Virus record (IMG/VR): IMGVR_UViG_3300006752_000130
Span: 1-30,778 of that record
Reading direction: 5' to 3' (one strand)
Source of the DNA: a virus
Length of the DNA: 30,778 nucleotides
This document shows, piece by piece, positions 128 to 19,194 of the stretch. Numbering within the stretch: the stretch's first letter is position 1; each line of letters begins with the position of its first letter. The notes under the pieces were generated by a model. The model was not told the origin of the DNA. It saw only the letters and a program-made list of their open reading frames with translations, and made no database searches. The position numbers and the translations under genes are program-made.

Positions 128-697
128 TTAAGAGTTAGTACCTTCTGTAATAGTTATAGTACCAGATAACCCAGCAAAATCTGTTGAGTTAAATACTAAT
201 TGACCAGAAGTGTGTTTCATAAAATTAGCTGGAGTTGTTTCCATTCCAGTTAATGTTAATGTATAACCACTAAGGTCTCCCATTGCAGCACCAGTTACAA
301 CTGTACCTCCTGATACGTCAGCACCGTTTACTAAACCAACCATCATAAAGTTTCCATTGTAATCTTCAACAGCAACGTGTGGTCTTCCATAAGCCATTAA
401 CTTTAACTCTTTATTATCTGCTTTAGATAACTTCTTAAGTGTTAAGTTTAATGTTTGCTCATAAAATGTAGTTCCGTTTTCTCTTGAAGAATTTACTGTT
501 TGTTCTAATGATGAATTACCTTTTAACTCATACTTACGAGCAGTTAATGCACCTGAAGCACCAGTAATATTAGTTATTTCGTCATCTGTAAGTGTTACAG
601 TACCTAAATCTCCGAAGTCAACGAAATAAATGTTTTTTATTCCACCAACGACATCTTTACAAGGTTCTTTTCTTCCTAAAGTTAAATCACAAGCCAT
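128..697 (-). CDS. Putative major tail (tail tube) protein
   Basis: This 189-residue protein begins MACDLTLGRKEPCKDVVGGI. It is rich in Thr, Gly and Val and appears all-beta, with a C-terminal half of alternating strands (TLTLTGMETTPANFM). Small proteins of this type directly after the major capsid gene are common in Bacteroidetes phages. Length, composition and position fit a tube protein that polymerises around the tape measure. There are two Cys near the N-terminus (C3, C13). It sits between two strong terminators, which suggests an abundant product made mainly by read-through from the capsid gene. No catalytic motif is visible, and a minor capsid or decoration protein remains possible. 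Confidence 0.5.
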   Translation of the reverse strand: MACDLTLGRKEPCKDVVGGIKNIYFVDFGDLGTVTLTDDEITNITGASGALTARKYELKGNSSLEQTVNSSRENGTTFYEQTLNLTLKKLSKADNKELKLMAYGRPHVAVEDYNGNFMMVGLVNGADVSGGTVVTGAAMGDLSGYTLTLTGMETTPANFMKHTSGQLVFNSTDFAGLSGTITITEGTNS

Positions 698-715
698 AAT
701 TTTTATTTTTTATAT

Positions 716-752
716 AAAAAAAGGGTGGTAGGCTCAAGGCTTACCTACCCTT
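716..752 (-). terminator. Rho-independent terminator between capsid and tail-tube genes
   Basis: The minus strand reads AAGGGTAGGTAAGC, a five-base loop, then GCCTACCACCCTT followed by a T run. This is a long stem with about two mismatches. It lies just past the major capsid stop and immediately before the tail-tube start, so it probably sets the capsid-to-tube expression ratio by partial termination. Confidence 0.8.
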
Positions 753-775
753 TCTTAAGTTGAACAATCTATTTA

Positions 776-1711
776 TTATGATGTAGCGTATAATACTACT
801 TCAGTTCCAATTCCGTGCTGGATTCCAGCAGTAAATCTCATAACAACTCTCACATTTTGAGAACCGTCTAAGTCCGCCATATCAATCACTTTTACTTCGT
901 TTTGGTCAGATAATAGACCTGTTCCAAAGAATAAGTTTGATTTTTGTGCTGCTACAGCATCATTATCAGATAATCCTGTTGCTAATGCAATTTGAATACC
1001 ATCAAACTGAAGACCAGCACCACCGTTATACCACTGTGTACCTTTGTTGTCAGTACCTGCTGCTCCTAATCCTGAAGCACCAAATCCACCTAAAGCTCTA
1101 ATGTAGTTTCTGTACATATTAGAAGGTAAGTAGATAGTCATATCTTCAGCACCATATACTGTAGATGGAATTGCGTCAGCAATTTTACCAAGCTCTGTAA
1201 TAATGTTAGCTGCAGTTGAAGCAGTACCTGTTACGTCAACTACATCAGAATCAGCTCCTAAAGTAGTGATGAATCCATCAAACTGACCAGTAGTTCCGTT
1301 AGCACCTGTCCAGATGTTAGTTTCCATTCTTTGAGCTACTTTATCTGCAACGTGTGCAATTAAAAAGTCAGAAAAAGAAGATGGTAAGTTGTCAAATGCA
1401 GAATATCCCATTTGTGCAGCTTCCCAGTCGCTTCTAAAGTCTTTTTTACATAATTCTAAGTTTACTTGAAACTCTTCTGGTTGTAAGATTCTTTCAGTAA
1501 GAGTAAGTGTTGATGTGTCATCAAAATCACAAGTTGCGTTTTTAACGATGTCATTTGTTGCCACTTTTTTCATTACTTGTTTGTATTTAACATTAGGTAC
1601 TACTGTAATATTACCTTCTGCTAAAGTTTTACCTGATAATAAAGCTGCAGAAATATATTTCCCAGCAAATTCACCAGCGTAAGTAGTAGTTATTGAAGTT
1701 GTTGTTGCCAT
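776..1711 (-). CDS. Major capsid protein (HK97-fold type)
   Basis: This 311-residue protein would form the icosahedral shell. It has the layout of Bacteroidetes-phage major capsid proteins: an N-terminal arm, a conserved early segment with LQPEEFQVNLELCKKDF, a helical stretch containing the run VADKVAQRMETNIWTG (the spine-helix region), a segment DMTIYLPSNMYRNYIRALGG, and a beta-rich C-terminal part ending in GIQHGIGTEVVLYATS. The length is typical for HK97-type subunits. It follows the scaffold gene after 11 bp and is followed by a strong terminator. The start at 1711 is preceded by an A/T-only leader without a Shine-Dalgarno sequence. No cleaved delta domain is apparent, which fits a separately encoded scaffold. 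Confidence 0.85.
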   Translation of the reverse strand: MATTTSITTTYAGEFAGKYISAALLSGKTLAEGNITVVPNVKYKQVMKKVATNDIVKNATCDFDDTSTLTLTERILQPEEFQVNLELCKKDFRSDWEAAQMGYSAFDNLPSSFSDFLIAHVADKVAQRMETNIWTGANGTTGQFDGFITTLGADSDVVDVTGTASTAANIITELGKIADAIPSTVYGAEDMTIYLPSNMYRNYIRALGGFGASGLGAAGTDNKGTQWYNGGAGLQFDGIQIALATGLSDNDAVAAQKSNLFFGTGLLSDQNEVKVIDMADLDGSQNVRVVMRFTAGIQHGIGTEVVLYATS

Positions 1712-1722
1712 TTTAAATTAAT

Positions 1723-2220
1723 TTAATTATTAGTTATTGCGTTTAATACTCTATTGTAAGTAGTGTTTCTATTTGCGTTTGGAGAAAACCTAACACCTAT
1801 TTTATCACTTACTTCGTTTTCTGGTGAATGAGAGATTGCTTCAGCAGGTTCATCAGCAGATAGTTCTTGTGGAACTTCTTCTTGAGCTTCGTCTTTAGCT
1901 TCTATCATACCTCTTAATTTCTCTACCATAGATTTAAGTTCTGAAACTTCATCTTTAGTAGCATATTCTACAGCAGGAGCTTCTTCTACTGGATTCTCCT
2001 CGTAGTTTTCCTCTTGTAGTTCGTCAGTAGGCTCTTCTGCAGAATAAGTTACTTCTTTAACTTCTGCTTTAGGAGCTACCTCTTTATTCTCCTTCTTAGC
2101 TTCTTGTTTTTTAGCTTTAGGAGCTTCGTCTTTTAACTCAACATCAGGAGTGTTTACTTCTTCTGAATTAGTTGATAAAAGAACATCTTTGATTTTTGTT
2201 ACAATTTCACTTGCTTTCAT
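1723..2220 (-). CDS. Putative capsid scaffolding protein
   Basis: This 165-residue, very acidic protein (Glu, Lys and Ala rich) has a low-complexity middle (roughly residues 25-85) and a predicted coiled coil around residues 88-112 (TKDEVSELKSMVEKLRGMIE). It ends in a short basic or polar segment (GVRFSPNANRNTTYNRVLNA). Scaffolds of HK97-like phages are acidic, helical and encoded just before the capsid protein, often with a conserved C-terminal capsid-binding segment. Position and composition both fit. The call rests on context and composition only. Confidence 0.6.
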   Translation of the reverse strand: MKASEIVTKIKDVLLSTNSEEVNTPDVELKDEAPKAKKQEAKKENKEVAPKAEVKEVTYSAEEPTDELQEENYEENPVEEAPAVEYATKDEVSELKSMVEKLRGMIEAKDEAQEEVPQELSADEPAEAISHSPENEVSDKIGVRFSPNANRNTTYNRVLNAITNN

Positions 2221-2271
2221 AAGATACTTTTATTTATAATTATTACTGATTAAAATTTAATTGTTGTATTT

Positions 2272-2415
2272 TCAAACTTTACCAACTCCTTGAGCTTGAA
2301 GTGTTCCATCACAACATTTTGTAGAGTAAGTTCTTCCATCAGGACATAAACATCCTCTTGACGAACTCTTTGGTGAAGAGTTACTTACTGTTGCTTTTTT
2401 ATTTCTTTTTATCAT
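2272..2415 (-). CDS. Small Cys-rich conserved phage protein
   Basis: This 47-residue protein has a Lys-rich N-terminus and a C-terminal core RGCLCPDGRTYSTKCCDGTL. Its four Cys (C22, C24, C34, C35) could form disulfides or bind a metal. I recognise the CLCxDG...YSxKCCDGxLxAQGxG pattern as one that recurs in small genes of Bacteroidetes phages, but its function is unknown to me. The ATG at 2413-2415 overlaps the TGA of the upstream protease gene (ATGA), which supports translation by coupling. It lies between protease and scaffold, so a link to capsid assembly is possible. Confidence 0.7.
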   Translation of the reverse strand: MIKRNKKATVSNSSPKSSSRGCLCPDGRTYSTKCCDGTLQAQGVGKV

Positions 2416-3581
2416 TTTATTGGAACACAATTAGGAACTTTTCTACCATTTTTATCTTTCATTCCTATCTGCTCATATCCTTCTGTGCAAGGAAGCTTTA
2501 AATTGTGTTCCTCACAAGGCATATACCACACATCTCCTTCGTACTCGTGTGTATGATACCCTGAACAACCTATGTCTTCAGCAGCTTTTTCTGCTTCTTC
2601 TTGCGTAGTATAAGCAGCTCTACCATCTATAATTGTTGATGATGCTTCTATTGCATCAAGCCCTTTTAATTTAGATGTTGTCCAAGTAAGCATTGATTTA
2701 CCACCCCATAATAAATATGATATAGTTCCACAAGCTTCATTGTTACCTGGCTCATAATAAGCAGATGCTCTTGATAAATATGAGTATATGCGTTTAAGAG
2801 TAGATAACGTAAAGTTTTCTCCCTTTTCAAGCTGTCTAGCTCTAACCTTACCAACTTGAGTTGCACACTTATTGTTTACTTTTTCGTTTAAAGCAATACC
2901 TCTTTTAGCATTGTTCTTTGCAGATTGTGGATAACCTCCATAAGACTCAAGCTCTACTTCTTCTGTAAGAGCAGCTAGTACTTCTGCAAGTTCATATTCT
3001 GCGTTCAGTTCATCTAAACAATCAGAACAAGCATTTTCTTCTACACTCTCTTTAGGTCTTTCCATACCATCAGCAAAATAACCTTCAATAGAAAATCCTT
3101 TTACTTCTCCTTCTTTTACTGCTTTCCATACATCATCATTTAATACTTTCATAGAAACCATCCAAGTTCCTTTAGGAAGGTCAAATCCATAAGCAGCAGC
3201 TTTATCTTTCTTTGGGTCTTCTATTAACCAAGATTCTACAACTGACATATCAGATAATTCAAATGAATGTTCAAATGTAGAGTTTTGGTGTTTACTTTTA
3301 ATAAAGAATAATTCAGATGCTTTTCTAACTGTATCCTCAGAGAAGTATATATAATAATCAGTATCTTCTTCGGTACCTTTTCTAAATATTTTCTTGTTAG
3401 GAATAAGTGCAGGACCCATAAGAATCCTTTGTTCTGCATCTACTTCTGCAAGTTTAACGTCTTTATGTTCTTTTAGTGCAATAAAGTCTTCTTCTATTGC
3501 TGGGTTTTCAACGACAGAGATAGCTTCAATACCACTAATCTCATTTTCTTCGTCTATAATAAGTTCTATTATTTTCTCCAT
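2412..3581 (-). CDS. Prohead protease (XkdF-like) fused to further small modules
   Basis: This 389-residue protein has at least three modules. Residues 1-180 resemble the XkdF-type prohead protease: EISGIEAISVVENPAIEEDF at residues 14-33, a His in FEHSFELSDMSVVESWLI (H105), and GFSIEGYF, where S164 is the likely nucleophile. Residues about 213-310 form a second conserved module (YPQSAKNNAKRGIALNEK, CATQVGKVRARQLEKGE, CGTISYLLWGG) that I know as a recurrent phage domain of unknown role. Residues 320-389 hold short Cys/His segments (GCSGYHTHEYEG, YMPCEEH) and end EGYEQIGMKDKNGRKVPNCV. Its likely job is capsid maturation cleavage. It sits upstream of scaffold and capsid. The catalytic residues are inferred by pattern, not by alignment. 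Confidence 0.75.
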   Translation of the reverse strand: MEKIIELIIDEENEISGIEAISVVENPAIEEDFIALKEHKDVKLAEVDAEQRILMGPALIPNKKIFRKGTEEDTDYYIYFSEDTVRKASELFFIKSKHQNSTFEHSFELSDMSVVESWLIEDPKKDKAAAYGFDLPKGTWMVSMKVLNDDVWKAVKEGEVKGFSIEGYFADGMERPKESVEENACSDCLDELNAEYELAEVLAALTEEVELESYGGYPQSAKNNAKRGIALNEKVNNKCATQVGKVRARQLEKGENFTLSTLKRIYSYLSRASAYYEPGNNEACGTISYLLWGGKSMLTWTTSKLKGLDAIEASSTIIDGRAAYTTQEEAEKAAEDIGCSGYHTHEYEGDVWYMPCEEHNLKLPCTEGYEQIGMKDKNGRKVPNCVPIK

Positions 3582-3615
3582 ATCTAAATAACCTTACTCG
3601 GTCTATTTTGTTTTA

Positions 3616-5652
3616 TTATCCTATTGACGCACCTTCTATCGTACTACGTTCAAGTTCTTGTGCTGTTGATATATCAGATGCTACCACAAATGCTTTTATT
3701 GGTTTATCATCTTGCCCAGATATAGCTTGAGCTAATTGACTCTCTTGTGTAGCACCTACTACGTTGAATGCAGGAGCTTGTACACTAGGAGAAGAACCTC
3801 CACCAACACTTGATACACCAGGAACCAAATTAGCTATTTGATTTTTTGCAGCATCTCTTGCTTTTTTAATACTTGCTAAAGCAACACCTATCGAAGCACC
3901 AAAAGCAATAACACCTGCAGGACCTAGTGCAGACATAAAACTACCTAACGACATACTTGCTTTACCAAGCTCTTTGCTAGCTTCAAGACCTATAGATGTT
4001 ACTGCATCTCCTGCTTGTTGTGCCTGAATACCTGCCATCATTAACTGTTGTTGAGCATAGAATCTAGCGTTCATTATTGTTTTAGCAATCATTAAAGTTT
4101 GCTCAATAGTAAACATATCTCTTTCTAGTTTTATCTTTTTCTTCTGTGTTTCTATTTCTTTAGACTCTATTGCATTAATTCTTTTTTCTTTTTCTGTTTG
4201 TGTTAATGTATCATTAGCTAAAACAACATCCCTTTCTCTGGCTAATCTGTCAAGCTGTGCCTGGTGATGTTCTTGCCTTAAATCATTTAAAGAATTTAAC
4301 ACACTTGCTGTTGAAGAAAAAGCTTGGTTGAGTATTCTTTCTTGCTCTCTTGACTCTCTTAACTCATTTTGCTGTGTTCTAATATAATCAGATATAAATT
4401 TTTGTGCATCTTTACCAGCTTGTTTATTTTTATCTAAAAACTGCTTATACAAATCATCTATAACATCTATTGATTCTTGAACTGATTCTTCAGCAAACTC
4501 TTTAAAATCTTCTAAATTACTTTCTCTTAAATCTTTAAGTTCTTCCAAATATATTGATTCGTAAAGAACTCTTAATTCATTTTTTTCATCAGCAGTATAT
4601 TCCGTTTCATTTAATTCTTTTAGGTTTGCTTCTTTTTGAAGAGTTAATAGTTTTTCTGCATCATCTATTTGTAGTTGTAGCAATTCAGCAGATAGTTTTT
4701 TCTTTGTTTTTACAAAATCAGATTCTTTTTCTTTACCCTTGTCTAAAGTTTCTAGGTATTTTAAGAACTCTTCTCTTTGAACTTTTAATCTAGTTATGTT
4801 TGCTACAGTTTGATTTGCATCCTCAATTTTCCCACCTTTCATCTGTTCAAGGAGAAGTGCTTCAGCTTTTTGAATTTCAACGTTATTGTTTAAACCTTCA
4901 TTGAGTTTGACTAATATGGAATATCTTTCATCTTGAGCTATGTTTGAATCTGTTAACATTTTAGCTTCTTTTATACCTGCTTTAATAAGCAAATCTCTTG
5001 AAAGTAAAAGAAATTCTTCAGTATCAAGAATAGCTTTTTGTCCTCTATTATATCTTCCGTTTTCTTTTTGTAGTTCTTCTAAGTAACCTAATTGGTCTTG
5101 AACTATAATGTTTTGAGCTTCTTGTAGTTCTACTTGTTCTCTTATAGCTTTAGTTTCTTCTTTAATTGCTTTTGTTACTTGATTTACTCCTTTACCTAGC
5201 TTTATTTTACCCTGTGCCATTGCATCTAGTAAAGCAATAAAAACTTGAAAAGCTAATATAATTCCTAAAGGACCAAAAAGCTCTCTTTTTAACATTTGCA
5301 AAGTTCTTGTTAACCTTCCAAATCCTTTTACGTTACTATCAACTTTACCTTGAAGAGTGATAAATAATGTTGATAATTGAGACAAGTTGTTTGCTATACC
5401 TCGAATACCATAAGGCATATCTGATATAGTACGACCAAGCTCTGTAAGTGTAGCTCCAGCAAGACCAGCATTAGTAGTCATACCTTCTCTACCACTTAAT
5501 GTTTGATTAAATTGTTTATTAGCTAATGTTGCTTTTTTAAGCTCTGCATCAAACTTTTTAACAGAAGTTGTAACGCCATCTATTTTACGAATAGCACCTT
5601 TCTCTGTAAATTCTATAGAGAATATTATTTTATTTTCCTGCGTTGTAGCCAT
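3616..5652 (-). CDS. Tail tape measure protein
   Basis: This 678-residue, mostly helical protein would set tail length and later help DNA delivery. The N-terminus carries LGRTISDMPYGIRGIANNLS, typical of tape measures of Bacteroidetes phages. A hydrophobic segment follows at about 126-145 (FGPLGIILAFQVFIALLDAM). Long charged heptad-rich helices fill residues 150-560, and a second hydrophobic Gly/Ala-rich segment (FMSALGPAGVIAFGASIGVA) lies near the C-terminus, before a low-complexity tail. At about 1.5 angstrom per residue it would give a tail of roughly 100 nm. Its start overlaps the preceding 52-codon gene by 23 bp. Confidence 0.85.
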   Translation of the reverse strand: MATTQENKIIFSIEFTEKGAIRKIDGVTTSVKKFDAELKKATLANKQFNQTLSGREGMTTNAGLAGATLTELGRTISDMPYGIRGIANNLSQLSTLFITLQGKVDSNVKGFGRLTRTLQMLKRELFGPLGIILAFQVFIALLDAMAQGKIKLGKGVNQVTKAIKEETKAIREQVELQEAQNIIVQDQLGYLEELQKENGRYNRGQKAILDTEEFLLLSRDLLIKAGIKEAKMLTDSNIAQDERYSILVKLNEGLNNNVEIQKAEALLLEQMKGGKIEDANQTVANITRLKVQREEFLKYLETLDKGKEKESDFVKTKKKLSAELLQLQIDDAEKLLTLQKEANLKELNETEYTADEKNELRVLYESIYLEELKDLRESNLEDFKEFAEESVQESIDVIDDLYKQFLDKNKQAGKDAQKFISDYIRTQQNELRESREQERILNQAFSSTASVLNSLNDLRQEHHQAQLDRLARERDVVLANDTLTQTEKEKRINAIESKEIETQKKKIKLERDMFTIEQTLMIAKTIMNARFYAQQQLMMAGIQAQQAGDAVTSIGLEASKELGKASMSLGSFMSALGPAGVIAFGASIGVALASIKKARDAAKNQIANLVPGVSSVGGGSSPSVQAPAFNVVGATQESQLAQAISGQDDKPIKAFVVASDISTAQELERSTIEGASIG

Positions 5653-9883: not shown

Positions 9884-12800
9884 TTATAACTGAGGTCCAC
9901 ATAATTCAACATCATAAACTTGTCCTTCTGGAACAGGGTCAGAATAACTTGAAGAACGCCCTATTTTAAATACAATATTTGTTTCTGTTTTCAGGAATTG
10001 ATTAGAGTTTGTAGTAAAATATTTATTTGACAATCTACCATCAGAATATAAATATACACCGTGACCAAAAGTACCTGTATAATAAACTGTATTAGGAAAA
10101 GTGTTTATTTGATTACAAGCATCAAGAGAATTTGAATTTACGTTTGCAGATATTCTAATTGATTTTATTGCGTCTGGTCTTTCTATTGTAGGTGGTGGAG
10201 GAGGATTTACAGCAGTATCACAATCAGTACAGTTGTCATATCTAACTAAATCTTCAATATTAATTACTGTTGTTGCACTTGCTGTAGTAGATTGCTCATA
10301 ACATATACCATTATATTCAACTGTAGGAAACAAGCTACTCCATTGTGCAGCAGTTAAATTGTTTGTACTACCAAATACTATTGTTTGAGAAGCATCAGCA
10401 CATTGTTTATAAGTTCTTCTATAAGCAAGACCAGTTACTGTAGGAGCTGTTGAACCTGAAATACAGGTTGTACAATCATTAAACTCTGACCAAAACAACT
10501 CTTGAAGAGACAAGGCATTAGGGCTATAAGCTAATATATTACCCTCGTCATTGTGGAAGGTATAAACTTTGTGTCTACAAGTTTGCGTATTTGAACCTGC
10601 TCTTAACACATTAGGTAAAGCAGAGTTAGAAACAATATATGTTAATGTACCTCCTGTACTTCCACATAATCTATACGCACCGTAATACAAATTAGGGTCA
10701 ACTATTACTTCTTCCTCTACAGTAATATCTCCAACACAAGTCTCACATTTTCCGTATGGTTGTAATCTTTCAATATCTGACGTAGAAAGAGTAAAATAAC
10801 CAGAAGGCAAAGTGTAGCTGTCAGCATATATTTCTATAATTTCATAACAACCAGCTCCTCCTGCTTGACCAAAATCTTTAAAGCTTAATACATTTCCTAA
10901 TTGATATTCAAAATTATCAAATAATATATATTCTAATCTACCAGCATTGGTTTGATTTGCACATCTTTTAACAGCAACTTTTTGTATACTTGTTGTAGGT
11001 TGACTTACTGGTGGACCTGCACAACCATAGTTTATACAAGGACCTGGTATTCCACTTGCTTCTATATATCTAAAGTTATTGTTTGTCCCACTTGTACTAT
11101 CGGAATAACTACCTGGAGATAAAGCACCTGTTCCATCTGGATTAGCATAAAATTGACTACCAACACAAAAAGCTGTTACAGCATTTCTGTCGCCATAAAT
11201 AGTAACGCTTGAACCTGTACACGCTGTATTACTTGCTTCACTTGTTGATGCGAACTTTAATGAAAAACTAGGTCTTGTTTGCCAAGTTATGCTTTTAAAT
11301 GTATCAGCTCTTTGATTTGTAACACCAGTTCCACTAACTTTACAGTTATAAAATACTACACCAGCACTTGTTTGTGTTTCTCCACCACCACCAACTTCAT
11401 TTATAACTAATGTCGATGATGTTTCACCACTAATGTTACTCATATTACTTGCACCTGACGAACTACCTTTTTCCCATTGATAAGTTGGGTTAGTTATATT
11501 TTGTGCAACTGCTGTTAACTCAGTTCTTTGTGACACAAAAGCAAATCCTTGATTATTACCATCGCTAGTTGACATATTAATAGTCACTCTTGGTGCTGCT
11601 GTAATAGTTGTTGTTGGACCAGAATCAGTACCACAAACAAATATTCTTGATACATATCCTGGAGGATAACTTAATACTAAAATATAATGACTTTGTGGGT
11701 TGTCATTAGCATCATATAATATAATATTATGCCATTTGTCAACACCGCCAAATACACTTGATAAGTTGTTACTAGAATCTTTCTGTGTATATAAAGCATT
11801 TCCTTCGGTTATAGAACCATTATAATATACCTCTGTATCTGCGTTTAACTCACAAGCAGCATTTCCTCCTGGTCCAGGAACTGATACTGATGTTGATGAT
11901 ATTACAGCGGTATTAGGTACTGTTGTTGATTCTTCCACATCACCAACTGATGTAGATGAAGCACATTCAACATAAGCACTAATTCTTCCATCAGCTACTT
12001 CTCCAATTATTCCATTATTGTTAGAACCTATTTTATAATATTTACCATCACTAGCATAAGGAGTTTCTAGTGACTGGTCACTAAACAAAGTTACACCATT
12101 ACCAATAGCAGATTGTCCACTAAGAAGAACAAAATATGCTGTATCTGTTGCCGTGTCAGCACAAGCTAATATGTCACTAGTTTTACCTGTAGTAGAAACT
12201 AAAACTGTACTTGGTGTTACTTGAGAGACTTCATCATATATTTTTACAGAAGTAGATATTGCTGGACTAACATCATCTAATGTTAATGTAAATGTTTCAA
12301 AGGGTTGTTCGTTTGTTGTATCTTTTACTGCTACAAATTCTTCTTGTGCTACATTTTCAAATATTTGAAACGAACCTGTTAAACCATTTCTTTCTAAATC
12401 ATTTGCAGATACTCCTGTTATAGTAAAAGGAACAGTTGAATTATCAGGCACATTTTCCGTTGTAAGAGTTATAGTAAATGCACTTCCTTCTGTTGCTGAC
12501 GCTACGCTTGGAGTCAAGATATACGTATCGTTAAGGCTAAGAGTACCTGATAGTGTTGAGGTTAGAGCAACATTAGCAGAACCTATAGTTCCACTAAAGC
12601 TTGATGTTGATGCTGCAAGAGCTGGACTTGCTGTATATCCTGTTGCTACAGTTAAAGCTATATCAAAAGTATATGAGTCTCCTGTGACACCTGTAACACT
12701 ATATTTAGTTTCTTCCTCTTTTATTAAAGTTTCTACTGTTGAACTAATGTTGGTTGCATTTTTTGTTACTGTACCTGAATAACCAGCAGAAGAAAAAGAA

Positions 12801-13216
12801 GGAAGTATATCGTTAGTAATTGTTAATTCTACTGTGTATTGAGTTGCTGTAGCGAAATTAACTTTAAAAGGAGTAGATGTCTTTGTAGTTCCGTCAGGAG
12901 CTGTAGCACTTACAGTATATGAAAATTCTTGTTGAGCTGCTCCTCCTCCTTGAGTTTGTGTAAATATAATATCTTGACTTGTTCCAGATGAAGCACCTCC
13001 AGACCAAGTATAAACACCACCAGATGGAACAAAGTTAATTGGTTTTGCTCTAAGAGTTATGTTTGCTCCAAAAGTCCCAACACCTGGACTATTTCTTTCT
13101 GTACCATCTGCGTTTACCTGTACTATGTTTATTAGTAATTCTTGTTCAGGTGTTCCTTCTGTACCTGTTGCAGTTATAAAATAAGGACTTCTACTGTTAA
13201 TTTTTTGTGTTGCCAT
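9884..13216 (-). CDS. Large multi-domain tail surface protein with Ig-like and Calx-beta-like modules
   Basis: This 1110-residue protein is probably exposed on the tail and involved in host contact. Residues about 1-120 look Ig-like (ANITLRAKPINF...YTWSGGA). Residues 232-327 resemble a Calx-beta repeat (ASATEGSAFTITLTTENVP...FETFTLTLDDV). Around 530-650 is another Ig-like module (NPTYQWEKG...VVFYNCKVSG). The C-terminal third has repeated modules with paired Cys (CETC, CTTC, CTDC), each ahead of segments such as YYGAYRLC and AYRRTYKQC, which suggests disulfide-stabilised or metal-bound repeats. Such mixtures are typical of phage adhesins. It overlaps the preceding connector gene by 20 bp. Confidence 0.65.
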   Translation of the reverse strand: MATQKINSRSPYFITATGTEGTPEQELLINIVQVNADGTERNSPGVGTFGANITLRAKPINFVPSGGVYTWSGGASSGTSQDIIFTQTQGGGAAQQEFSYTVSATAPDGTTKTSTPFKVNFATATQYTVELTITNDILPSFSSAGYSGTVTKNATNISSTVETLIKEEETKYSVTGVTGDSYTFDIALTVATGYTASPALAASTSSFSGTIGSANVALTSTLSGTLSLNDTYILTPSVASATEGSAFTITLTTENVPDNSTVPFTITGVSANDLERNGLTGSFQIFENVAQEEFVAVKDTTNEQPFETFTLTLDDVSPAISTSVKIYDEVSQVTPSTVLVSTTGKTSDILACADTATDTAYFVLLSGQSAIGNGVTLFSDQSLETPYASDGKYYKIGSNNNGIIGEVADGRISAYVECASSTSVGDVEESTTVPNTAVISSTSVSVPGPGGNAACELNADTEVYYNGSITEGNALYTQKDSSNNLSSVFGGVDKWHNIILYDANDNPQSHYILVLSYPPGYVSRIFVCGTDSGPTTTITAAPRVTINMSTSDGNNQGFAFVSQRTELTAVAQNITNPTYQWEKGSSSGASNMSNISGETSSTLVINEVGGGGETQTSAGVVFYNCKVSGTGVTNQRADTFKSITWQTRPSFSLKFASTSEASNTACTGSSVTIYGDRNAVTAFCVGSQFYANPDGTGALSPGSYSDSTSGTNNNFRYIEASGIPGPCINYGCAGPPVSQPTTSIQKVAVKRCANQTNAGRLEYILFDNFEYQLGNVLSFKDFGQAGGAGCYEIIEIYADSYTLPSGYFTLSTSDIERLQPYGKCETCVGDITVEEEVIVDPNLYYGAYRLCGSTGGTLTYIVSNSALPNVLRAGSNTQTCRHKVYTFHNDEGNILAYSPNALSLQELFWSEFNDCTTCISGSTAPTVTGLAYRRTYKQCADASQTIVFGSTNNLTAAQWSSLFPTVEYNGICYEQSTTASATTVINIEDLVRYDNCTDCDTAVNPPPPPTIERPDAIKSIRISANVNSNSLDACNQINTFPNTVYYTGTFGHGVYLYSDGRLSNKYFTTNSNQFLKTETNIVFKIGRSSSYSDPVPEGQVYDVELCGPQL

Positions 13217-13649
13217 TTATCTGGTCATTTATATCTTTTAAGTAACTCTGTTCTATATCTTTTGTTATTGATGGGACAATTGAATTTATTGTCTCCCAAA
13301 AGAAGTTTGTTCCTTGAATACCTTCGTCACCTATTTTCTTTGCTATTACCCAAGCTAGTGTTCTATTTCCCTTCTTTTTGTTTTTTTTATATGTTTCGAT
13401 ACCTCTTGCTTTCATCCATTCCATTATCGGTCTTATTGGTGGCATCTTCTTACCTGGCTTTCTACCATAGTTTACTACATACCAATACTCACTTGCAAAT
13501 ATACTAATTGAAGTTCCTTCTACTATACCAGTAATACTTTTTTCTAAATCACCAGTAGCAACTTTATCGTCAGAAATAATTCTGCTTTTTAATTGAGCTA
13601 CAATAGTATCTTTATACTGTTCTAATATTTTGTTTAACCTTTCTGACAT
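13197..13649 (-). CDS. HK97 gp10-like head-tail connector protein
   Basis: This 150-residue protein belongs, by pattern, to the HK97 gp10 family of head-closure or tail-completion proteins. The core is TGDLEKSITGIVEGTSISIFASEYWYVVNYGRKPGKKMPP, i.e. the beta strand and YWYVVNYGRKPG segment typical of that family. I chose the ATG at 13647-13649 because it overlaps the upstream stop as TAATG, the same junction used elsewhere in this operon. A longer frame would need a TTG start. The neighbouring 153-residue tail-completion protein fits the usual pairing. Confidence 0.7.
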   Translation of the reverse strand: MSERLNKILEQYKDTIVAQLKSRIISDDKVATGDLEKSITGIVEGTSISIFASEYWYVVNYGRKPGKKMPPIRPIMEWMKARGIETYKKNKKKGNRTLAWVIAKKIGDEGIQGTNFFWETINSIVPSITKDIEQSYLKDINDQINGNTKN

Positions 13650-14110
13650 TAACAAAGAGATAATTCATTAGTAGGTACTTCTATGTTTATAGTAACTCCC
13701 CATCCAGCTAATTGATTCTCAAAGTTATCTTGGAATGGTTCTGCAGTTACACTTGATGTTATTTGAAAGTTATCTGAAAAAGCATCACCTCTTCTCATTT
13801 CTTGTTGCAAATCATTTACTACTTGCAGTTGAGTGTTTAATATATCTTGTAGGTTGTCATTACCAAACATCATATCTTCAGTTTGTTTTTCTTTTGTTAC
13901 ATCTACTATGTCTAAACATAATATTCTAATTGAAGCTGAAAGTATATGTTCACTAAAAGTTACATTACCAAAAGCAATATGAGATAAAGGAAATATAGTT
14001 GTTTTATTTAAATCAACTTCTGTCAAGTCACCGAAGGTGACAGTTTTTGTTATTCCGTTTGCTCTTAATATTTCTTTTAATTTATCTAATACTGTATAAA
14101 CTTGTCTCAT
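13649..14110 (-). CDS. Putative tail completion (tail terminator) protein
   Basis: This 153-residue protein shows FGNDNLQDILNTQLQVVNDL, MRRGDAFSDNFQIT and FENQLAGWGVTINIEVP, a combination I recognise from a protein family found next to gp10-like connectors and tail chaperones in Bacteroidetes phages. Length and neighbours fit a protein that caps the tail tube at the head side. The start ATG (14108-14110) overlaps the stop of the frameshifted chaperone product as ATGA, which supports both features. The specific role is inferred from context. Confidence 0.6.
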   Translation of the reverse strand: MRQVYTVLDKLKEILRANGITKTVTFGDLTEVDLNKTTIFPLSHIAFGNVTFSEHILSASIRILCLDIVDVTKEKQTEDMMFGNDNLQDILNTQLQVVNDLQQEMRRGDAFSDNFQITSSVTAEPFQDNFENQLAGWGVTINIEVPTNELSLC

Positions 14111-14894
14111 TTTATATTTTGTTTAATCATTTTGTTTTCTAATTCGTTTTTCTCTTTTTCAAACTCTAACCAAGTTAAGCATTGTGCGATGGGTAGTTTT
14201 GTAATTTTGCTAAATTTTGTGACATCGCCTTTAGCGATTGCGTATACTGACTGATACCAACCCCATTTTGCTCCAAATGAGTCTGAAAGTCCGAATCCTC
14301 CTTCAGTTGTTTCTCCAAAGAGACTATCAAATGTTTCGACAATTCGTTTCCTAAACTGTAAAAAAAAACCGTTGAACCGAGTGATGCTTGTATAGGAGAG
14401 TCTTTCATTACTTCTGCGTATTTATCACTTCCCTCGTAATCTTCTATTAAATAGAAATCATTCTTCTGATGTTTAGTTGGTCTGTATAAGATTGCCATAG
14501 CTTTGTGCATTTGTTGCCAATCGCCAATATACTTTTCTAAGTCTATAAACTCACCCATACTCATATCTTCTAGCTTAGGTATAAATCCAAACGTAACATT
14601 ATTACCGTCTGGGTCTATCATATCAAATTTATTATGTAATTTATGTTCAACAGCAAACAGTTCGTTGACGTGTCTTATTACTGAAGTAAATTCAGTCATA
14701 GGTAACTTGTAAGCTTCTTTCATTGTTATACCACAAAAACATTCTAACATCTTAAGATTAGAGAACTCAACCTCTTCCTGTGTAGGTTCTTCTTTCTGTG
14801 TTAAGTGTTCTACTGATTTAATATATTTTTGATATTGACCCAGCGTTATATCTTGCAAAGATGAAGGGATGTTTAGTGTAATGGTTTGACTCAT
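14107..14894 (-). CDS. Probable -1 frameshift fusion product of the tail assembly chaperone
   Basis: A -1 slip at the T9 run would join residues 1-178 of the chaperone to 84 residues encoded in the -1 frame, giving about 262 residues. This would be the equivalent of lambda gpGT. The -1 frame reads FGAKWGWYQSVYAIAKGDVT, then KFSKITKLPIAQCLTWLEFE and a charged helix. Its composition is that of a real protein, and I recognise the GWYxxxYAxAxGD...TxLPxxxxLTWLxxEKxK pattern from other phages. Its TGA overlaps the next gene's ATG as ATGA, whereas the zero-frame stop leaves a 64 bp gap. Known for the class: many dsDNA phages use such a frameshift between tube and tape measure genes. Inferred here: the slip position and efficiency. 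Confidence 0.7.
14175..14894 (-). CDS. Tail assembly chaperone, zero-frame product
   Basis: This 239-residue protein shows SLQDITLGQYQKYIKSVEHL, then FIPKLEDMSMGEFIDLEKYI, DWQQMHKAMAILYRP and an end LEQNGVGISQYTQSLKAMSQ. These fit a family of Bacteroidetes-phage proteins in the tail region. Like lambda gpG, it would bind the tape measure before tube assembly. After residue 178 it runs through a stretch that is also open and conserved-looking in the -1 frame (see the fusion entry). This gene opens the leftward structural block after a roughly 500 bp gap. A weak -7-like TATCTTTA lies about 30 bp upstream. Confidence 0.65.
   Translation of the reverse strand: MSQTITLNIPSSLQDITLGQYQKYIKSVEHLTQKEEPTQEEVEFSNLKMLECFCGITMKEAYKLPMTEFTSVIRHVNELFAVEHKLHNKFDMIDPDGNNVTFGFIPKLEDMSMGEFIDLEKYIGDWQQMHKAMAILYRPTKHQKNDFYLIEDYEGSDKYAEVMKDSPIQASLGSTVFFYSLGNELSKHLIVSLEKQLKEDSDFQTHLEQNGVGISQYTQSLKAMSQNLAKLQNYPSHNA
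14358..14369 (-). other. Candidate -1 ribosomal slippery site
   Basis: The coding strand reads GTTTTTTTTTAC, with zero-frame codons GTT TTT TTT TAC (residues 176-179). A single-base backward slip keeps TTT pairing and enters the downstream -1 frame, which stays open for about 84 codons. Transcript slippage on the T9 run would give the same product and cannot be excluded. Confidence 0.65.
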
Positions 14895-17536: not shown

Positions 17537-17773
17537 TTATTCTTTATTAAGTTTCTCTTCTTTTTGCCTAGAGCTAAATTGCTCTGTGTTTAACTGTAAC
17601 ATAGTCCCATTTGGACAGACAGGTGCTTCATAATCTAAACCATAAGTAACAACTGTATCGCCCTCATAAATAGGTACTGTTATCATTTCCTGACACAACA
17701 TCAGAAAATATAATTTCTGGTGCTGGTCAGTACTATTATAGAAATCTATTACTTTACTAAATTTCTTTTTCAT
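17537..17773 (-). CDS. Small protein of unknown function
   Basis: This 78-residue protein reads MKKKFSKVIDFYNSTDQHQK, then LYFLMLCQEMITVPIYEGDT and a polar C-terminus. I chose the ATG at 17771-17773 because it overlaps the upstream TAA as TAATG, a junction used repeatedly in this genome. A start two codons earlier is possible. No family is recognised. It is co-transcribed with the 455-residue gene. Confidence 0.5.
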   Translation of the reverse strand: MKKKFSKVIDFYNSTDQHQKLYFLMLCQEMITVPIYEGDTVVTYGLDYEAPVCPNGTMLQLNTEQFSSRQKEEKLNKE

Positions 17774-19140
17774 TACCATTCAATTAAAGTTAGTTGAGAT
17801 GTGTCATACGAATCAGTAACAATCTTTGTGAATTGCCATTTCCAATTATCTACATTGTTAGCCTGTGTAGTGTATAAGTTTGACTTATTAAAGTTAATCT
17901 TATCAAGGATTTCTTGGTCATCTTCATTTAATAAACCATACTTAGATACAGCGTCTAAATACTTCTGTATAAAGTCAATATAAAGCCTTATGTCAACGTT
18001 TTTTTCTATATACATAGGAGTATATACCAGATTACTAGAATTACCGCTATACCTAGTTAAAACACCTTCATTATTATAGAACTTTTTATTTATAAATATT
18101 CTAAGCTTAACTTTGCTTTCAAGTCTCTTTAGAACCTGAACTCTAAAAACATTCTCTACTGCAATACTGTTAGTAGTGTAGAATCTTTTTAATATTCTCA
18201 TTTCACCATACTTATAGCCATCGTTACTTTCGTTTACAAAATTTATGTTATCAATGACTTTATCATCTATTTCATTATATATCTTTAACCTAAAGTTAAC
18301 CCTTTTTTGTCTTCTTAACTCATTTAGGTTATCACTTAAATCTGACGTATCAGGAAAGTTTGAAATATCAATATCATTATGTAAATCTAACATAGTTTTC
18401 ATAAACAAGCTATAAACAGATAGCTGACGAGAATACATATCTAAGTCATTAATCTTTTTATCAAAATCAATAACTTTATTTTTATAATCATCACTATAAT
18501 TACATTCTTTTATACGTGATAATGTAAAAGAGTAAATTTGATATTGATAATTAGCGTCTTCATCACCAACAGAAATATCTGTATGATATGATTGAAAACT
18601 TATATTATCTTGACCAGCTTTTATATCTCTATAAATATCATTTGATATTGCATTGATTAAACCGCAGCTATTATCATAAGTAGATTTATATCTGTTGTTA
18701 AAATACTCAATGTACTTAAGTTTATCCCAGGCAAACAATGTTAATGTAAAACTATTTTCGCTATTTCCTTTAAGGTAATAATTCTCAAAGTCCATATAAG
18801 AAATAAAACTTCCTGAATTAGATATTAATCTTTGATAATGTTCATTATCTTTAGATGGATTTAATTCTTTAATTTTATTATGCACCTCATCTATTGATAA
18901 TATATTAGGTGTCTTCCAGAATTTAGAAAACCTGCTATCCCATACTAAAACTTCTGTTCCGTTAAGTGTGGCAAAGGATGTAGTTTGCATATCCAATATG
19001 TTATTTACATAAGATTCATAAAGCTTTTTTATATTTGCTTTTTGAACTTTAAGTGCAGAGGTTTTGACCTTGTCAATCTCTGTTTGTACGTTAGATATTT
19101 TAGTATCTAACTCTTCTATTATTGTGTTATAATTTTTCAT
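17773..19140 (-). CDS. Large accessory protein of unknown function
   Basis: This 455-residue protein opens with a coiled coil (residues about 1-45, IIEELDTKISNVQTEIDKVK). The body is rich in Asn, Asp, Tyr and Ile and has no recognisable catalytic motif, membrane segment or zinc site. I do not recognise it. I prefer the ATG at 19138-19140 over the one 14 codons upstream because a TATGTTTG -7 element (19157-19164) would place the transcript start between them. It lies directly after the large terminase, where a portal gene is often found, but it shows no portal-like features. TGCGTTTAA clusters flank it on both sides. It could be replication-related, structural or a cargo gene. Confidence 0.6.
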   Translation of the reverse strand: MKNYNTIIEELDTKISNVQTEIDKVKTSALKVQKANIKKLYESYVNNILDMQTTSFATLNGTEVLVWDSRFSKFWKTPNILSIDEVHNKIKELNPSKDNEHYQRLISNSGSFISYMDFENYYLKGNSENSFTLTLFAWDKLKYIEYFNNRYKSTYDNSCGLINAISNDIYRDIKAGQDNISFQSYHTDISVGDEDANYQYQIYSFTLSRIKECNYSDDYKNKVIDFDKKINDLDMYSRQLSVYSLFMKTMLDLHNDIDISNFPDTSDLSDNLNELRRQKRVNFRLKIYNEIDDKVIDNINFVNESNDGYKYGEMRILKRFYTTNSIAVENVFRVQVLKRLESKVKLRIFINKKFYNNEGVLTRYSGNSSNLVYTPMYIEKNVDIRLYIDFIQKYLDAVSKYGLLNEDDQEILDKINFNKSNLYTTQANNVDNWKWQFTKIVTDSYDTSQLTLIEW

Positions 19141-19156
19141 ATTATTTATTGAACTG

Positions 19157-19164
19157 CAAACATA
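19157..19164 (-). promoter_or_regulatory. Bacteroidetes-type -7 element for the 455-residue gene
   Basis: The minus strand carries TATGTTTG, an exact TAnnTTTG match, 17 bp upstream of the ATG at 19140. The nearest upstream TTG is only 12 bp away, closer than the usual 17-23 bp, so the -33 part is weak. Confidence 0.45.
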
Positions 19165-19194
19165 TTTAAAATAAATCAACATCCTTTATAAATT

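Follow-up and report, generated by a model that had tools for sequence, protein, structure and literature searches.

The window, i.e., the whole stretch of 30,778 nucleotides that was analysed (IMG/VR virus record IMGVR_UViG_3300006752_000130), most probably derives from a phage of marine flavobacteria-type hosts that makes one of its proteins in two versions via a slip at a run of nine Ts. The gene in question very probably specifies two proteins with a common N-terminal domain of 178 residues, which would diverge by a −1 slip and end in C-termini that are dual-coded on the same DNA. Most ribosomes would pass GT_T TTT TTT TAC, the slippery site, without leaving the zero frame and yield a protein of 239 amino acids with a 61-residue tail. 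A minority would slip back by one base on T_TTT_TTT, with the tRNA-Phe in the P-site and that in the A-site both re-pairing perfectly, to yield a fusion of 262 amino acids that carries an 84-residue helical domain from the −1 frame. The 183 bases past the slip would then encode two C-termini, each kept by selection. The sequences themselves show the reading frames, a heptamer that is in phase and conserved, the A_AAT_TTT that takes its place in some relatives, and the selection on both frames; we infer the ribosomal nature of the shift and its efficiency.

Gene layout and conservation of the slippery site

The gene is located on the minus strand (14894–14175) and has 239 codons, with an ATG at 14894 and a zero-frame stop at 14177–14175. 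The N-terminal domain common to both products (residues 1–178; 14361–14894) is conserved in all relatives. The T9 run (14360–14368) spans V176, F177, F178 and the first base of Y179 (codons 176–179, GTT TTT TTT TAC), and it contains the slippery heptamer T_TTT_TTT (14361–14367) in the phase of the zero frame. Beyond the slip, the zero frame remains open for 61 codons, followed by the stop (14175–14360). The C-terminal domain of the −1 frame (14107–14361) consists of 84 open codons (14361–14110) followed by a TGA (14109–14107), of which the first two bases lie within the ATG of the next gene; the resulting ATGA overlap (14110–14107) is found at the same place in near relatives. This next gene (minus strand, 13649–14110) is a conserved neighbour that codes for a 153-aa protein of unknown function (phrog_30964). 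The T run at residues 176–178, the 84-codon open −1 frame and the ATGA overlap had all been pointed out in the preliminary description of the window, and the coordinates agree with it on each. The long stretch of dual coding that it described is real as well; its length is 183 bases or 61 codons (14360–14178) and not about 70 codons, and the −1 frame is single coding over roughly its final 22 codons. The product of the −1 shift would be the 262-residue fusion.

Relatives of both parts of the gene were collected by protein and profile searches of IMG/VR, and a scan of genomes added six relatives, including the isolate genome of Galbibacter pacificus (L235). In the annotated phage collection, homologues were found only in the Nonlabens phages P12024S and P12024L. 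Deduplication left 237 distinct sequences with both parts, the window included, which were examined by script; they were sampled by similarity and are not a census. The N-terminal and −1 domains were offset by −1 in all 237 sequences and in two later genomes. A heptamer of the form X_XXY_YYZ was present in phase at the junction in 237 of 237 (T_TTT_TTT in 233, A_AAT_TTT in 4), and in nearly all relatives nine Ts (in a few cases ten) follow one another without a break. A search of 397 Flavobacteriaceae genomes yielded the gene in three (Galbibacter again and two others), all with T9; the two genomes added to the 237 sequences are L323 and L324, both with T9. The length of the zero-frame tail past the slip ranges from 25 to 80 codons with a median of 62; short tails occur in the Nonlabens phages (25 codons), L199 (38 codons) and L324 (40 codons). 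Early stops in the −1 frame and loss of the slippery site were sought in the relatives as refutations of the shift, and neither was found. The −1 frameshift, which had been called probable, is thus strongly supported by the offset and the slippery site in every relative.

Homopolymers are prone to error and the −1 domain is well conserved, which would fit a situation in which the −1 frame is the true continuation of the gene, displaced by a homopolymer error or a frameshift mutation, with the zero-frame tail as noise. However, a second contig (L001) carries a stretch identical to that of the window, the same arrangement is found in all relatives, among them the isolate genome of G. pacificus and two isolated phages, and the zero frame is open and under selection (see below). 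The concordant relatives refute a sequencing error or a pseudogene in practice, and we give this explanation next to no weight.

Another route into the −1 frame would be internal initiation at a separate overlapping gene, and GenBank indeed lists the −1 part in P12024S as a small gene in its own right (P12024S_39). The interval from the nearest upstream stop in the −1 frame to the third residue of the conserved domain was inspected for start codons in 230 relatives. ATG and GTG are absent from it in 226 and TTG is also absent in 178; in 27 of the 230, the upstream −1 stop lies at most 5 codons before the slip exit. Internal initiation, which would also leave the invariant slippery heptamer unexplained, was therefore rejected for want of a start codon and is highly improbable. 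A conserved in-phase heptamer and a −1 offset without an independent second start is the arrangement expected of a −1 frameshift by tandem slippage.

The homologous genes 38/39 of P12024S (L147, 3007–3701) and 40/41 of P12024L (L148) share the T9 run, the −1 offset and the neighbouring genes with the gene described here. They differ in the short zero-frame tail and in that the halves are split in GenBank, where they are annotated as two hypothetical genes and the frameshift is not noted. The T9 run and the −1 offset indicate that each pair is one frameshifted gene, and phrog_32199 and phrog_38404 look like the two halves of it.

Selection on both frames of the overlap

The openness of the zero frame was assessed by holding the −1 protein fixed and resampling its synonymous codons according to the codon use of the family. 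The resampled zero frame was open for a median of 6 codons versus 61 observed (p = 0.009 for the window), and the geometric-mean p over 63 non-redundant relatives was 0.0067. The third frame has 3–8 stops in each of 36 aligned relatives.

Substitution rates were determined for close pairs (<15% divergence) among 36 relatives of identical architecture. The dS of the −1 frame was 0.146 in the overlap versus 0.497 in the single-coding end of this frame, and the dS of the zero frame upstream was 0.655. Sites that are synonymous in both frames changed at 0.545 in these pairs (about 1.3 such sites per pair), indicating that the bases of the overlap as such are free to vary. In sliding windows, the dS of the −1 frame was 0.18–0.39 across the overlap and reached 1.39 and 1.0 immediately beyond the zero-frame stop; the dS of the zero frame was 0.8–1.3 upstream and fell from about 0.9–1.0 to 0.17 at the slip. 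Synonymous rates are thus 3–5 fold lower between the slip site and the zero-frame stop and rebound just beyond it, and each of the seven length groups tested showed the drop in the overlap. Substitutions that leave the −1 protein unaltered and replace a zero-frame residue, with those that create stops excluded, occurred at 0.37, 0.16, 0.36 and 0.22 times their rate in the single-coding end (four length groups), with bootstrap upper limits of 0.63, 0.37, 0.95 and 0.55, respectively; these intervals are not fully independent since pairs within a group share ancestry. The dNN/dSN of the zero frame was 0.65 (bootstrap 0.42–1.03), which is weaker by itself.

Judged from these rates, both frames of the overlap are under selection, with purifying selection acting on each across the same bases. 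Conservation by codon position in the two frames had been proposed as a check on the preliminary description, and the collapse of dS in the overlap supports selection on each of them. The claim of two conserved C-termini holds in this respect. The zero-frame motif LEQNGVGISQYT, to which that description had drawn attention, is weak evidence by itself because it is partly dictated by the conserved KWGWYQS of the −1 frame; its similarity by itself was dropped as evidence, and the case for selection on both frames is made by the rate tests.

The zero frame might be open merely through the constraint on the −1 protein, in which case its tail would be without function. The glycines G211 and G213 of the zero frame do follow from KWGWYQS, tail lengths vary as given above, and the confidence predicted for the structure of the tail is low. 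Yet the codon resampling leaves a median of just 6 open codons under such a constraint, changes that affect the zero-frame residue and are synonymous in the −1 frame are suppressed about 3–6 fold even with stop-makers excluded, and this suppression ends at the zero-frame stop. A functionless tail is accordingly very unlikely.

Ribosomal versus transcriptional slippage

Four relatives (L042, L237, L239 and L240) have GTA AAT TTT AT(T/A) TA(T/C) in place of GTT TTT TTT TAC. They contain at most four Ts in a row and the −1 arrangement is still kept. A_AAT_TTT is a canonical heptamer for tandem slippage. In a maximum-likelihood tree (midpoint root; deep forks poorly supported), the four form one clade with a support of 100/100 among members with T9.

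These sequences bear on the possibility of RNA polymerase slippage on T9, with one U added, which would put part of the mRNA in the −1 frame without any shift by ribosomes. The unbroken run of Ts in nearly all relatives is consistent with such a process, and bacteria provide well-documented cases of transcriptional slippage on homopolymers, for instance tssM of C. rodentium (PMC4256274; reviewed in PMC5009743). Genes of this type (C. rodentium tssM, Shigella mxiE) resemble the present one in that two products depend on a homopolymer (PMC4256274); they differ from it in that the shift is retained here in a subclade free of the T run. The run is, moreover, always in the phase required for tandem tRNA slippage, with T at the third positions. 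Since the A_AAT_TTT subclade keeps the −1 arrangement without a long T run, a ribosomal −1 shift is favoured and polymerase slippage in its place is unlikely. The subclade is the best evidence here and argues for slippage of the ribosome rather than the polymerase. In members with T9, slippage of the polymerase may add to the yield.

Conserved RNA folding downstream of the slip was analysed in 59 sequences using windows of 60 bases, and none was observed in excess (mean z near 0). A downstream stimulatory structure or an upstream SD-like element is usual in −1 frameshift genes, and not obligatory. The usual stimulator may thus be missing or of another kind.

Structure predictions, genome context and possible role of the two products

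In the AlphaFold2 model of the zero-frame product, the common N-terminal domain has pLDDT values mostly above 85, and most of the zero-frame tail has values of 40–66. The −1 domain is predicted to be small and all helical (pLDDT 85.8). The N-terminal domain matches phrog_32199 (E 1.5e-16) and the −1 domain weakly matches phrog_38404. No match to a chaperone family was found in Pfam, PHROG or NCBIfam; Foldseek yielded no significant match in the PDB for either model, and searching the sequences of solved structures with the two profiles gave no match at E up to 10. In BFVD, good scores were obtained only with uncharacterized phage proteins, the P12024S homologue among them, and residues 10–86 weakly resembled a viral model annotated as a tail chaperone (prob 0.84, E 0.71). 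A second look with VIA-align placed the same residues on the HK97 tail chaperone (2ob9) with a Z of 3.2 over 59 residues; such a value falls in the stated noise of the tool, and this fold similarity was set aside.

The gene order is TerL (followed by some small genes in the subgroup of the window), the frameshift gene, the 153-aa gene, a neck/tail-completion-like gene, more tail-like genes, the probable tape-measure gene, an XkdF-like protease, a capsid-like protein and a tube-like protein (697–128). From the frameshift gene onward, the relatives and P12024S have the same order, and that of P12024S is comparable over the whole stretch between its terminase gene and its homologue of the probable tape-measure gene. 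The 153-aa phrog_30964 gene, which as a guess could be tail-terminator-like, follows the frameshift gene in 227 of the 236 relatives. The probable tape-measure gene (5652–3616) was named by the character of its sequence and has no family match; the frameshift gene lies ∼8.5 kb and several genes before it.

Some other features of the window were observed. The order in 128–5652 is unusual, as the probable tape-measure gene precedes the head protease, scaffold-like, capsid-like and tube-like genes. The C-terminal part of the XkdF-like head protease (2412–3581) matches DUF3721 (PF12518), an unusual addition. A 1110-aa protein (9884–13216) has a weak Ig-like match (PF13927) below the cut-off and is without a PHROG match; similarity to it was found in the flanks of no more than 20 of the 236 relatives. 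A gene for 469 aa (17773–19182) that lacks a family match and was seen in few relatives is located after TerL and before the frameshift gene. The record, at 30.8 kb, may be incomplete, and no portal gene was recognised in it.

The closest known parallels are frameshifted tail genes. Like lambda G/GT, the present gene combines two predicted products, a common N-terminus and a −1 shift at an in-phase heptamer (PMC5009743), and the −1-frame extension runs to the next gene (lambda record). In lambda, however, the heptamer is GGGAAAG with 5 codons to the zero-frame stop, compared with T_TTT_TTT and 61 dual-coded codons here, and G lies directly before the tape-measure gene H, whereas the present gene is far from the probable tape-measure gene. 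Similarly, E/E+E′ of P2 (FETUD operon) has a −1 shift at a heptamer with a T run, TTTTTTG, in a tail gene (record note); it differs in the 6 codons from the heptamer to the zero-frame stop and in its position directly before the tape-measure gene T.

At the sequence level the gene has two products with a common N-terminus, as tail-chaperone genes do, and it likely works as their frameshift does, giving two products by a −1 shift. It does not occupy the place between the major tail protein and the tape measure, directly before the latter. For this reason, likeness of mechanism is kept apart from membership of the family, and the tail-chaperone identity is putative. Of the original designation as a tail chaperone, the two products by −1 shift and the fit to a tail gene cluster stand; the gene is distant from the tape-measure gene, no family library names it, and its similarity to the HK97 fold is weak. 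We regard a tail-chaperone role of the products as reasonably probable. They would then form a gpG/gpGT-like pair in tail assembly, with an abundant short form and a −1 domain that would recruit a second tail protein.

A smaller, appreciable chance is left for the two products serving another step of assembly, i.e., head–tail joining or packaging. This would accord with TerL upstream of the gene in at least 139 of 236 relatives, with the phrog_30964 and neck-like genes that then follow, with the several genes that separate it from the probable tape measure, and with the absence of a chaperone family match. On the other hand, no rival candidate for a chaperone was seen beside the tape-measure gene in the window, the −1 design with two products is typical of tail chaperones, and residues 10–86 bear a weak structural resemblance to 2ob9 and to the viral tail chaperone model. 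Tentatively, the zero-frame tail and the −1 domain could be two separately functional C-terminal modules overprinted on ∼180 bases, which would give the gpG-like and the gpGT-like product each a specific end for binding its partner. Both would serve in assembly, from a gene set apart from the classical tail chaperones by its position and its fold, and the heptamer would be swappable (T_TTT_TTT, A_AAT_TTT) with the dual code kept.

In the tail-gene frameshifts known to date, the zero frame stops soon past the slip, with an average of 26 nt in SEA-PHAGES (PMC10885494). For the 28 chaperone genes in the set of Xu et al., the average is 36 nt (PMC10885494), and the predictor PRFect takes a short distance from slip to stop as a feature. 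The dual-coded stretch has a median of 62 codons in the relatives versus 5 in lambda G/GT and 6 in P2 E/E′. Among 5 million open-access texts, no account came up of this gene or of a conserved overlap of comparable length in a tail gene, and its novelty is not certain.

The gene departs from the textbook phage example in that evolution has maintained both reading frames over some 60 codons beyond the slip. A lineage in which this is so implies that the rule of a short distance from slip to stop can fail, and such genes will then be missed or split, as in P12024S and P12024L. The lineage also offers a natural experiment on the coevolution of two C-termini that share their DNA. Provided that the function is as proposed, the short product in a pair of this type can likewise require a C-terminal module of its own.
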